Origin: Patescibacteria group bacterium
GTDB taxonomy: Bacteria; Patescibacteria; UBA1384; JAMDBS01
Assembly: GCA_023487325.1 (NCBI GenBank)
Contig: JAMDBS010000112.1
Coordinates: 1 to 5,006, forward strand
Direction of reading: 5' to 3'
Length of the DNA: 5,006 nt
Shown: positions 241 to 5,006 of the stretch, piece after piece
How the letters are laid out: each line of letters opens with the position of its first letter
Position numbering within the stretch: position 1 is the stretch's first letter
Notes under the pieces: generated by a model
Databases searched by the model: none
The model's input: only the letters and a program-made list of their open reading frames with translations
What the model was told of the DNA's origin: nothing
Program-made: the position numbers and the translations under genes

Positions 241-309
241 AAAAAAGACCCAAGAAATAGCACTGTGGATCAAACATTTTTTAATATTAATCCTGCTTCT
301 CTTGGGTCT
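241..309 (-). terminator. Intrinsic terminator of the small RNA
   Basis: On the minus strand the arm AGACCCAAGA (309-300) pairs perfectly with TCTTGGGTCT (255-246) and runs into TTTTTT (246-241). This is the classic Rho-independent layout. The interior is not just a loop: AGCA/TGCT (297-294 with 262-259) and GGAT/ATCC (293-290 with 270-267) can stack above the base stem, leaving an A/T-rich apical loop of about 19 bases. No other convincing terminator follows the 415-residue gene, so this one may also end that operon's transcript. Confidence 0.85.
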
Positions 310-526
310 CCAATTGGCTAAGGGAGTAACCATTTATATCCCCTTCCGGGGAATAAATTCCCAAGAAAGGAAAGTGGCATCCTAGCCGTCTGCCGATGTT
401 AAGTCGGCATATGGTTGGCGCCTTACCAGAAACTAAAGAGCAAAAAATTTTGTTTTTGTTTTATTAATACAAAGGTAAGGCTGAGCTGCTCCGATCGAGT
501 ACTTTATTGATCGAAGCAAATCAACC

Positions 527-541
527 CTACATTTCCCTCCT
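527..541 (-). promoter_or_regulatory. Shine-Dalgarno-like AGGAGGG followed by ATG-TAG
   Basis: Near the 5' end of the predicted small RNA, AGGAGGG (541-535) is followed two bases later by ATG (532-530) and immediately by TAG (529-527). This makes a start-stop unit with no peptide. The purine run resembles the Shine-Dalgarno of the 504-residue gene (AGGGAGGG, four bases between GGGAGG and ATG). It could be a ribosome-capturing regulatory site, an anti-16S contact, or chance. A TTG at 524-522 would give only a six-codon frame. Confidence 0.3.
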
Positions 542-561
542 GTTTTTAATATTCTATAAAT

Positions 562-591
562 ATTATACCACAAAAAAATTGATTTTGTCAA
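562..591 (-). promoter_or_regulatory. Strong sigma70-type promoter of the small RNA
   Basis: On the minus strand there is TTGACA (591-586), an 18-base spacer and TATAAT (567-562), with TG one base before the -10 (TGGTATAAT), an extended -10. Both hexamers match consensus exactly. Transcription would start near A555. The -35 box contains the TGA stop codon (590-588) of the 415-residue gene, so the promoter is packed against the end of that gene. No protein start follows downstream, which points to an RNA product. Confidence 0.85.
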
Positions 592-3370: not shown

Positions 3371-3495
3371 TTAAATCCTAAGCACTAATATCTAAATCCT
3401 AAACAATATTAAATTTTATAAATTCAAAACGTTTGTAATTTTAATATTTTAATTTGGAATTTGTTTAGAGTTTAAAATTTGGGATTTAGGATTTT
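3371..3495. repeat. AT-rich repeat region with inverted 'AAATCCTAAA / TTTAGGATTT' arms
   Basis: The 196-base gap between dnaB and the 504-residue gene is mostly repeat-like. AAATCCTA at 3373-3380 and AAATCCTAAA at 3394-3403 are both complementary to TTTAGGATTT at 3485-3494 (8 and 10 perfect pairs). The region would lie in the 5' leader of the fibre-gene mRNA if the promoter at 3516-3545 is used, so the two left arms could compete for the right arm. The helices are weak (A/T-rich) and far apart, so a structural role is uncertain. Confidence 0.5.
3378..3403 (-). repeat. 26-base dispersed repeat, copy 2 (inverted)
   Basis: Read on the minus strand this is identical over 26 bases to 158-183. It sits 27 to 52 bases upstream of the ATG of the 504-residue gene, just before its ribosome binding site. 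The pair brackets the two-gene surface-protein unit plus the small RNA in inverted orientation. That arrangement could allow inversion by recombination, but 26 bases is short for that. Confidence 0.75.
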
Positions 3496-3547: not shown

Positions 3548-4909
3548 CTAACTCTTGTTTTTTTTCTCGATTGATTTAAAAGATGTTTGCTCAGAAACAA
3601 AATAAAGTTCTAGTTTGCCAACCGGACCATTACGATGTTTTTTAATGAATAAATCGGCAATATTTTTTCTTTCGGAGTCATTATTGTAATAATCCTCTCT
3701 ATATAGAAACATGACTACATCCGCATCTTGCTCGATAGAGCCGGATTCTCTTAAATCGGCCAATTGAGGAATATGATCTGGCCGCTGTTCTACCGCGCGC
3801 GAAAGCTGAGAAAGCGCCATTACCGGCACATTCAATTCCCTTGCGAGCGCTTTTAAACCCCGAGAAATATCCGATATTTCTTGAACTCGATTGATATCGC
3901 GCAAATTCTGCCGACCCTGCATTAATTGCAAATAATCAATAATAATTAAGCCTAAACCATGTTCGGACTGCAAACGACGCGCCTTAGTCCTTAATTCCAT
4001 CACATTTAGAAGCGGCGAATCATCAATAAAAATCGGCGCCTCAGAAAGCACATTCATCGCGTAGCCAACGCGCGGAAAATCTTCTTCGGATAAATTGCCG
4101 GTGCGTAGTTTCCAAGAGTCGACAGCCGCCTCCGAACAAATCATCCTGTCTACCAGTTGCTCCTTGGATTGTTCCAGCGAAAAAATACCCACCGGAATTT
4201 TTTCTTTGCCCGCCGCATATTGAGCAATATTTAAAGCCAGTGATGTTTTACCAATCGAAGGCCGCGCCGCCAAAATAATTAAATCAGAAGGCTGTAGCCC
4301 GGCTAAGATATTATCTAGTTCCTTAAATCCGGTTGGCACGCCGCGTAATTTGCCTTTGTGTTTATGCAAATCATCAATACGATCAAAAGTTTCGGCCAAA
4401 ATCGATTTCACCGGCACAAAATATTGCTTGGTAAACTTCTGTGAAACTGCAAATATCTCGCTTTCGGCTTTATCTAAAAGCGTTTCAACATCTTCTTCTT
4501 CGGTATAGCCTAGACTAGTAATTGCGGTCGCGGCCGAAATAAGACGGCGCAAAGTCGCTTTGTTATGCACAATTTCCGCATAAGAAACAATATGGGCGGA
4601 ACTAGGAACAATATTAGCCAATGTCGTTAAATAGCTAACGCCGCCAACATCTTTTAGTTCTTTTTTCTTCTCTAGGCGATCGGTCAAAGTAACTAAATCT
4701 ATTGGTGTTCTTTTTTCAAATAGCTCCAAAATAGCGGCAAATATTTTTTGATGATCTTCCTTATAAAAATCCTCGATCCTGACAATATCGGCGATTTTAA
4801 TTATGGAATCTTTGTCTAACAAAATACAGCCCAAAACCGATTGCTCGGCTTCGAGATTTTGCGGCGGAATATGGACATTGTCAGTTAAGGTATTTTTTAC
4901 GCCGGGCAT
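3548..4909 (-). CDS. dnaB: Replicative DNA helicase DnaB
   Basis: 453 residues, the usual length for DnaB, with no intein. It is the hexameric 5'-3' helicase that unwinds DNA at the replication fork. The N-terminal domain starts at PPQNLEAEQSVLG (15-27) and runs to about 155, followed by a linker to about 185. The RecA-like motor has Walker A ARPSIGKTS (215-223, K221/T222), catalytic Glu246 in FSLEQS, Walker B LIIIDYLQLM (321-330, D325), the sensor-like ALSQLSRAVEQR (365-376), LADLRESGSIEQDADVV (383-399) and the KHRNGP segment (424-429), whose KxR matches the arginine-finger region. The common FSLEMS reads FSLEQS here, a small deviation at Met. The ATG at 4909 is preferred over the in-frame GTG at 4945 because GAGGAGGGA (4925-4917) precedes it at good spacing; from the GTG that site would be coding. 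After the TAG stop, two further in-frame stops follow (TAG TGT TAG TAT TAA). It starts one base after the upstream gene's TAA, so coupled translation is likely. Confidence 0.98.
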   Translation of the reverse strand: MPGVKNTLTDNVHIPPQNLEAEQSVLGCILLDKDSIIKIADIVRIEDFYKEDHQKIFAAILELFEKRTPIDLVTLTDRLEKKKELKDVGGVSYLTTLANIVPSSAHIVSYAEIVHNKATLRRLISAATAITSLGYTEEEDVETLLDKAESEIFAVSQKFTKQYFVPVKSILAETFDRIDDLHKHKGKLRGVPTGFKELDNILAGLQPSDLIILAARPSIGKTSLALNIAQYAAGKEKIPVGIFSLEQSKEQLVDRMICSEAAVDSWKLRTGNLSEEDFPRVGYAMNVLSEAPIFIDDSPLLNVMELRTKARRLQSEHGLGLIIIDYLQLMQGRQNLRDINRVQEISDISRGLKALARELNVPVMALSQLSRAVEQRPDHIPQLADLRESGSIEQDADVVMFLYREDYYNNDSERKNIADLFIKKHRNGPVGKLELYFVSEQTSFKSIEKKNKS

Positions 4910-4910
4910 T

Positions 4911-5006
4911 TTATGCTCCCTCCTCTTCGAAAACTTCCCGCACACTCGCTAACACATCTGGTTCGATTTTATTTATTTTAGCTAATTTGCTGTCGATAAT
5001 AGTTAA
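4911..5006 (-). CDS. C-terminal end of an unidentified protein (partial)
   Basis: The minus-strand frame is open from the window edge to TAA at 4913-4911, giving 31 residues that begin LTIIDSKLAKINKIEPDVLA and end VREVFEEEGA. The evidence that it is a real gene is its continuous frame and the one-base TAA-A-ATG junction with dnaB. It also overlaps dnaB's Shine-Dalgarno, so the EEEG codons double as the ribosome binding site. It is a charged, probably helical tail with no recognisable motif. It does not look like the end of ribosomal protein L9, a frequent dnaB neighbour in other bacteria. Function unknown. Confidence 0.65.
   Translation of the reverse strand, partial: LTIIDSKLAKINKIEPDVLASVREVFEEEGA
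4917..4925 (-). promoter_or_regulatory. Ribosome binding site that sets the dnaB start
   Basis: GAGGAGGGA on the minus strand contains a perfect AGGAGG (4924-4919), nine bases before the ATG at 4909. It lies within the last codons of the upstream gene and rules against the longer GTG start at 4945. Confidence 0.9.

Follow-up and report, generated by a model that had tools for sequence, protein, structure and literature searches.

A dnaB-linked structured RNA, likely a member of an undescribed fast-evolving family in one class of Patescibacteria

Introduction

OLE, GOLLD and ROOL are stand-alone structured bacterial RNAs of unclear function, larger than the RNA described here and assigned to Rfam families, and 6S RNA is another stand-alone gene, with a strong promoter. 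One account treats OLE, GOLLD and ROOL as ornate orphan RNAs (PMC12286853), and another reports orphan structured RNAs from a pipeline (GC-IGR) that searches GC-rich intergenic regions (PMC6429828). Our own literature searches covered titles and the starts of abstracts, outside subscription journals and preprints; the matches listed on structured or small RNAs in CPR, Patescibacteria or Saccharibacteria included no lineage-specific study, and those on dnaB- or uvrD-linked RNAs, candidate structured RNAs and CPR RNA motifs did not describe the RNA considered here. This RNA lies in a window of 5,006 bases, by which we mean the whole contig that was analysed, and it probably belongs to a family found beside dnaB in one patescibacterial class. 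Genomes and loci used for comparison carry G and L numbers, respectively.

Results

A strongly promoted non-coding locus downstream of dnaB

On its minus strand the contig carries, in this order, dnaB, a 504-aa gene, a 415-aa gene and the RNA locus:

3548-4945, minus strand: dnaB, replicative helicase (Pfam DnaB_C, 7.7e-109)
3351-1837, minus strand: gene for a 504-aa protein without a Pfam match
1835-588, minus strand: gene for a 415-aa protein with carboxypeptidase-regulatory-like domains
241-555, minus strand: RNA locus, after the 415-aa gene and at the left end of the contig

The RNA is downstream of dnaB with two other genes in between, and 240 bases remain between it and the contig end, in which no minus-strand ORF of at least 30 aa begins. 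A DnaB tree of 36 rows, with ten forks unresolved, places the window beside G095 (99/94), within one patescibacterial class (55 genomes). The closest relatives of the surface proteins P0002 and P0006 (73% and 76% identity) apparently lie on one 23,806-base contig, so this gene pair is probably conserved. Two repeats were also seen: contig bases 1-22 are a 95% inverted copy of 977-998, inside the 415-aa gene and possibly an assembly end artefact, and a 44-base intergenic repeat (145-188 versus 3373-3416) occurs in inverted orientation with 89% complementarity.

Three features delimit the transcription unit:

562-591, minus strand: extended -10 promoter of the sigma-70 type (TTGACA 591-586, 18-base spacer with TG, TATAAT 567-562)
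241-555, minus strand: structured non-coding RNA of about 315 nt, so described from its fold, the lack of an Rfam match of substance and its relatives by dnaB
241-246, minus strand: T6 run of the terminator, read from the sequence

The promoter overlaps the stop codon (588) of the upstream 415-aa ORF and is the sole 12/12 match among the 16 sites listed in the window; no 12/12 site occurred in 600 dinucleotide-shuffled windows. The RNA start near 555 is placed from this promoter, and its end is set at the T run, which follows a hairpin at about 311-244 with pair probabilities of 0.74 to 0.99; a simple terminator scan of the window did not list this hairpin among its sites. ORFs within the transcript reach 34 aa at most. 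The first-pass annotation, which had proposed a promoter of TTGACA and an 18-base spacer, a strong terminator and no credible protein between them, is borne out on all three points.

From these signals we infer that the window RNA is transcribed. Judged by its promoter, it may reasonably be expected to be abundant, because high-scoring promoter sites precede the RNase P and tmRNA genes of the class: among 40 such genes, the top-scoring site within some 115 bases upstream, where single shuffles average about 8, scored 12/12 in 8, 11/12 in 4 and 10/12 in 12, and for each of the 8 genes with a 12/12 site none of 40 shuffles matched it. Two class genomes (about 1.75 Mb) hold 14 sites of at least 11/12 followed by at least 200 non-ORF bases, one of them being RNase P, and the best fold among 15 such promoter sites is that of the window RNA (z -6.4; next -4.6).

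Predicted fold

The stretch 241-555 has a folding energy of -111.6 kcal/mol, with z-scores of -7.5 and -7.2 in two runs and still -6.3 once the terminator hairpin is removed. In a scan of both strands by 160-nt windows, 122 in all, 9 of the 10 best folds overlapped the window RNA, whose GC content is 39% (47% in 312-432) versus 25% in 1-240. The following elements are predicted or can be drawn:

475-530, minus strand: 5' hairpin (530-521/484-475 and 519-509/496-486), pair probability 0.99, z -7.0 alone
420-481, minus strand: 8-bp stem GCCUUACC/GGUAAGGC round an A/U-rich loop, competing with the outer 5' hairpin
339-372, minus strand: central hairpin (372-364/347-339 and 362-358/353-349), pair probability about 0.9
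332-358, minus strand: GGAA-capped helix with one bulge, competing with the central hairpin
312-318, minus strand: GCCAATT, immediately upstream of the 3' hairpin
about 244-311, minus strand: 3' hairpin, the terminator stem, whose shape defines the proposed family

The 3' hairpin runs from a lower stem through an A bulge (258), a 4-bp middle stem (259-262/294-297) and an ACAG bulge (263-266) to an upper stem with the apex AAUAUUAAA. Two of the remaining helices had been singled out earlier, namely the GGAA-capped helix at 332-358 and the stem 420-427/474-481; both can form, but neither is part of the predicted minimum, and forcing them costs 2.7 and 3.7 kcal/mol, respectively. They are without solid comparative support, the suggestive exception being a counterpart of 420-481 in one relative. 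Specifically, G191 holds CCTTACCG...CTCTTTA...CGGTAAGG, which resembles the arrangement at 420-481, with CCTTACC...GGTAAGG around A-rich sequence; this similarity may mean that the 420-481 stem is right, but the alignment between the window and G191 is not significant.

Known RNA classes and direct homology

When the window was scanned with cmscan, in full to E 5 and over 231-600 to E 10, every match fell far short of the cut-off. Most of the matches were models of eukaryotic miRNAs that fitted plain hairpins; the others were Qrr, CRISPR-DR57, SSRC8_2 and, at positions outside the window RNA, STnc240 and snoZ162. RNase P class A (RF00010) gave no match to E 10, tmRNA (RF00023) was matched by neither ARAGORN nor Rfam, and 6S RNA (RF00013) gave no match, the predicted fold not being a single long hairpin with a central bubble. 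A riboswitch or T-box leader was rejected on two grounds, namely that no Rfam match of this type was found and that no same-strand ORF of at least 30 aa starts in the 240 bases downstream. The first-pass view that this is no recognisable housekeeping RNA, and the Rfam comparison it proposed, thus end in the same result: no match of substance to E 10, with 6S, SRP, RNase P and tmRNA all absent. In the class itself, RNase P scores over cut-off in 42 of 55 genomes and tmRNA in 47 of 55, both sets including G067 and G031.

Searches with blastn were equally sparse. The window RNA matched 1 plasmid and 6 phage records over short stretches (E 0.1-0.3), and 21 of 379 phylum genomes had matches at E <=0.001, all of 23-54 bases; queries with the neighbouring gene, in part or in full, run class-wide (55, 7 and 1 genomes), and with the 3' half of the window RNA (2 genomes) returned nothing. 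A single-sequence covariance model of its central domain (R1) found nothing in the 55 class genomes and one match at E 0.32, judged to be chance, in the 379 phylum genomes; the lack of a convincing relative indicates that the middle of the RNA is not conserved. Exact-pattern scans of IMG/VR yielded one match, which R1 did not recognise and which looked unrelated by eye, and otherwise nothing, and no viral locus was found via protein neighbours.

Relatives beside dnaB

The stretch downstream of dnaB was examined in 20 genomes of the class, and 12 of them have a promoter-driven or strongly folded non-coding unit there. Eight units (G031, G067, G220, G191, G150, G109, G254 and G279) are matched by R2, the model of the 3' hairpin described below. 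Without an R2 match, G081 and G262 combine a promoter with a double-bulge hairpin, and G237 and G138, possible members, show a promoter and a folded non-ORF stretch only. The other eight genomes (G095, G169, G245, G229, G049, G211, G158 and G180), in some of which the stretch is short, show no such unit there. Among candidates discarded on the way, a unit downstream of dnaB in G049 proved to be 23S rRNA, the non-ORF stretches of G211 were repeats by eye with the 10/12 site elsewhere, and that of G229 was A/T-rich and by eye unlike the family. In G095, the nearest genome by the DnaB tree, no copy can be recognised anywhere in the assembly; the two best R2 matches there (0.18 and 0.28) look coding by eye, one being without a promoter and the other having a 10/12 site about 280 bases upstream.

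Putative members span about 145-400 nt. A promoter of at least 10/12 precedes 11 of the 12 family members, the remaining one, G254, having no good promoter (7/12). In G067, one of the 14 promoter sites mentioned above starts the structured unit by dnaB, after a sigma-like ORF. Beyond the RNA lies uvrD in 6 of the 8 R2-matched relatives (G067, G031, G109, G150, G254 and G220); G191 and G279 differ in that the RNA and dnaB converge, and the gene tested downstream is murJ, followed at some distance by lepA in G279. This varying orientation argues against co-transcription with dnaB. The RNA is accordingly conserved outside its source genome, but its company is different: surface-protein genes had been suggested as the neighbours to look for, whereas it is dnaB that stays constant, and uvrD follows beyond the RNA in most of the matched relatives.

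In ten genomes outside the class (G020, G026, G092, G064, G028, G135, G178, G148, G016 and G027), we found no 10/12 promoter with a long non-ORF stretch on the dnaB strand. One of them, G016, has, 5 kb past dnaB, a non-ORF stretch of 421 bases that folds strongly and contains AGGAGGG (L303, 5177-5597). This stretch has no 10/12 promoter on its strand and neither an R2 nor an Rfam match, and it may be a distant relative or another unknown RNA.

Several further elements were seen in the class genomes. G067 has a second promoter-driven RNA away from dnaB (L211, 4285-4501, minus strand), a possible paralogue that shares the 3' hairpin and little else with the dnaB-linked copy, and a promoter-driven, strongly folded unit (L189, 13505-13740, plus strand) with complementary ends, a terminator and no Rfam match of substance, whose shape is reminiscent of 6S RNA. 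In G220 (L291), another 11/12 promoter lies downstream of the RNA in the same intergenic stretch and perhaps belongs to a second RNA. Inteins with a LAGLIDADG domain interrupt dnaB in G220 (L291, 7477-8988, minus strand) and G191 (L292, 7436-8959, minus strand), and an intein also occurs in uvrD of G220 (L291, 3821-6787, minus strand).

A bulged 3' hairpin defines the proposed family

R2 is a covariance model of the 3' hairpin built from G031, G067, the second G067 copy and G220, with the window left out. Over 30 loci (333 kb), training loci and antisense echoes excluded, it matched G191 (7e-9), G150 (0.016), G109 (0.053), the window (0.066), G254 (0.14) and G279 (0.33), followed by L302 from outside the class (0.98) and by two matches above 3. 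The match to the window is weak on its own; position had already singled out G150, G109, the window and G254 by the time R2 was built. For G191 and G279 similarity came first, and promoters of 11/12 and 10/12 were then seen upstream. On the G067 contig, R2 gave good scores for the two known copies only.

The shape of this hairpin is asymmetric. All 12 family hairpins have a bulge of 3-5 bases on the 3' side that faces no more than one base, as do 235 of 1636 controls (mirror image, 232); two successive 3'-side bulges occur in 11 of 12 versus 40 of 649 controls, two of which are family copies, whereas the mirror image of the double bulge is seen in 0 of 12 and 55 of 649; in these comparisons hairpin ends were set by hand for the family and by rule for the controls, and R2 had served to confirm some of the members. 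Of 11 tabulated hairpins, 10 have A as the opening base of the first bulge, and AAU(N)UUAAA recurs in 6 of 14 RNAs, that of the window among them, as against a mean of 1.04 and a maximum of 5 in shuffled sequences. Both the two successive 3'-side bulges and the A/U apex are present in the window hairpin.

Its pairing is retained as well. Double changes that keep pairing occur at every one of the nine innermost lower-stem positions in ten hairpins (1.32; shuffled max 0.53), a count that omits G067b, a near copy of G067, and G109, whose predicted fold lacks the middle stem, and that leans towards pairing, since stem pairs were drawn from each hairpin's own fold, and is not a formal covariation test. 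The predicted folds nevertheless show a hairpin whose structure would outlive its sequence. Compensatory changes, which the first-pass annotation had proposed to look for in its named helices, are seen in the 3' hairpin but not in those two helices.

Sequence links and the GGAGGG element

Of the 91 pairs among 14 RNAs, 22 have alignments that no more than 6 of 300 shuffles equalled. The 5' part of the window RNA aligns with that of G279 better than in 300 of 300 shuffles, over a segment that includes GGAGGGAAAUGUA; its other 12 comparisons are not significant, G262 coming next at 18/300. One element near the 5' end is shared exactly:

528-540, minus strand: GGAGGGAAATGTA, Shine-Dalgarno-like and followed by ATG-TAG, an identical 13-mer standing near the 5' end of the G279 RNA

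Among 304 loci this 13-mer has one genomic site, that of G279, present in both L117 and L135. More broadly, of the 14 putative members 8 contain GGAGGG and 6 lack it, 5 contain GCCAAT, and 3 have GGAGGG with an ATG at most 6 bases away; the corresponding shuffled means are 0.86, 0.91 and 0.06, and the maxima 5, 4 and 1. No peptide is conserved among the three with such an ATG. The 16S rRNA of G067 ends in CACCTCCTTT at its 3' end, and pairing of GGAGGG with the anti-Shine-Dalgarno would therefore be possible.

Discussion

Our results make it likely that the window holds a stand-alone non-coding RNA gene belonging to an undescribed, fast-evolving, dnaB-linked family of one patescibacterial class. 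The earlier reading of the stretch as a stand-alone structured RNA is supported by the lack of an Rfam match of substance, the relatives in other genomes and the pairing kept in the 3' hairpin. The family's position is downstream of dnaB and, in most firm relatives, between dnaB and uvrD, and the window RNA is presumably a trans-acting molecule, not a leader or a 3' untranslated region.

Five other readings have to be weighed. That the stretch is the 3' untranslated region and terminator of a surface-protein operon with an internal promoter, its hairpin being merely a favoured terminator shape, is unlikely. The interval between the stop codon at 588 and position 311 holds no listed terminator-like site, the hairpin ends in T6 and double-bulge hairpins do occur elsewhere at a low rate (40/649), all as this reading would have it; yet the RNA of relatives follows dnaB directly, a sigma-like ORF (G067) or a Pfam-less ORF (G109), runs convergent to dnaB in G191 and G279, keeps a promoter of at least 10/12 in 11 of 12 cases and, in the window, folds strongly even without the hairpin (z -6.3).

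It is quite unlikely that the window RNA is real but unrelated to the others, with the dnaB neighbourhood alone in common. Three links tie it to them, namely position, the R2 match and the match with G279 that contains GGAGGGAAATGTA, against which it can be said that the family ties amount to the 3' hairpin and one pairwise comparison only and that R1 yields nothing convincing.

An attenuator-bearing leader that regulates in cis a gene past the contig end, for example uvrD, would account for a terminator at the end of the RNA and for uvrD lying downstream in G067, G031, G109, G150, G254 and G220. We consider it improbable: no minus-strand ORF of at least 30 aa begins in the 240 bases left of contig, the gap between RNA and uvrD is about 540 bases in G109 and about 620 in G150, other ORFs intervene in G067, G031 and G220, the RNA points the other way in G191 and G279, and Rfam gives no leader or riboswitch match.

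Very improbable, too, is a tiny messenger in which GGAGGG and ATG start a micro-peptide, since the window ATG is directly followed by TAG, the frames of G279 and G031 close within a few codons that differ by eye, and 11 of 14 members lack such an ATG, against the 3 of 14 that carry one within 6 bases of GGAGGG. Most improbable of all is a very divergent 6S, SRP, RNase P or tmRNA, for which the strong promoter and a length within the range of such RNAs would speak, but none of these families appears in the Rfam scans to E 10, G067 and G031 have RNase P and tmRNA besides the new RNA, and the predicted fold does not take the single-rod form of 6S.

For the stand-alone, dnaB-linked RNA that we favour, a mechanism can be sketched. 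The bulged 3' hairpin would terminate, stabilise and protect the RNA and is probably also a putative protein-recruiting element, while GGAGGG, complementary to the 16S anti-Shine-Dalgarno, would be exposed as the candidate working contact. Through it the RNA could dock on free 30S subunits, most likely at the 30S 3' end, the main alternative being a GGA-binding protein as the contact. We offer this whole hairpin-held, GGAGGG-docking mechanism, whether on the 30S subunit or on a GGA-binding protein, as the likeliest mechanism, though a tentative one. A doubtful extension of it would make the RNA a class-specific, anti-Shine-Dalgarno-complementary and hairpin-anchored global regulator of free 30S subunits or part of a replication-tied complex. 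Generally, Patescibacteria have very small genomes, and a strongly promoted RNA gene kept beside dnaB in such a reduced genome is unlikely to be idle.

Compared with known systems, the family's 3' hairpin is, as in intrinsic terminators, followed by a T run, but it differs from them in its two successive 3'-side bulges (11 of 12 versus about 6% of controls) and its recurrent A/U apex motif. The window RNA shares with 6S RNA a stand-alone gene and a strong promoter, whereas its fold has several domains instead of one bubble-bearing rod and gives no RF00013 match. The dnaB-linked RNAs are stand-alone and structured as OLE, GOLLD and ROOL are, but with members of about 145-400 nt, a terminator-type 3' hairpin and no Rfam family match. 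In common with the orphan RNAs of the GC-IGR report (PMC6429828), the window RNA is richer in GC than its AT-rich surroundings, lies in a long intergenic region and folds strongly; by contrast with them, the dnaB-linked RNA matches no Rfam family, is tied to the dnaB locus in one patescibacterial class and shows very fast sequence turnover. In this family blastn and a single-sequence model failed where position and a small hairpin model worked, so fast-changing RNAs of this kind may be widely overlooked.
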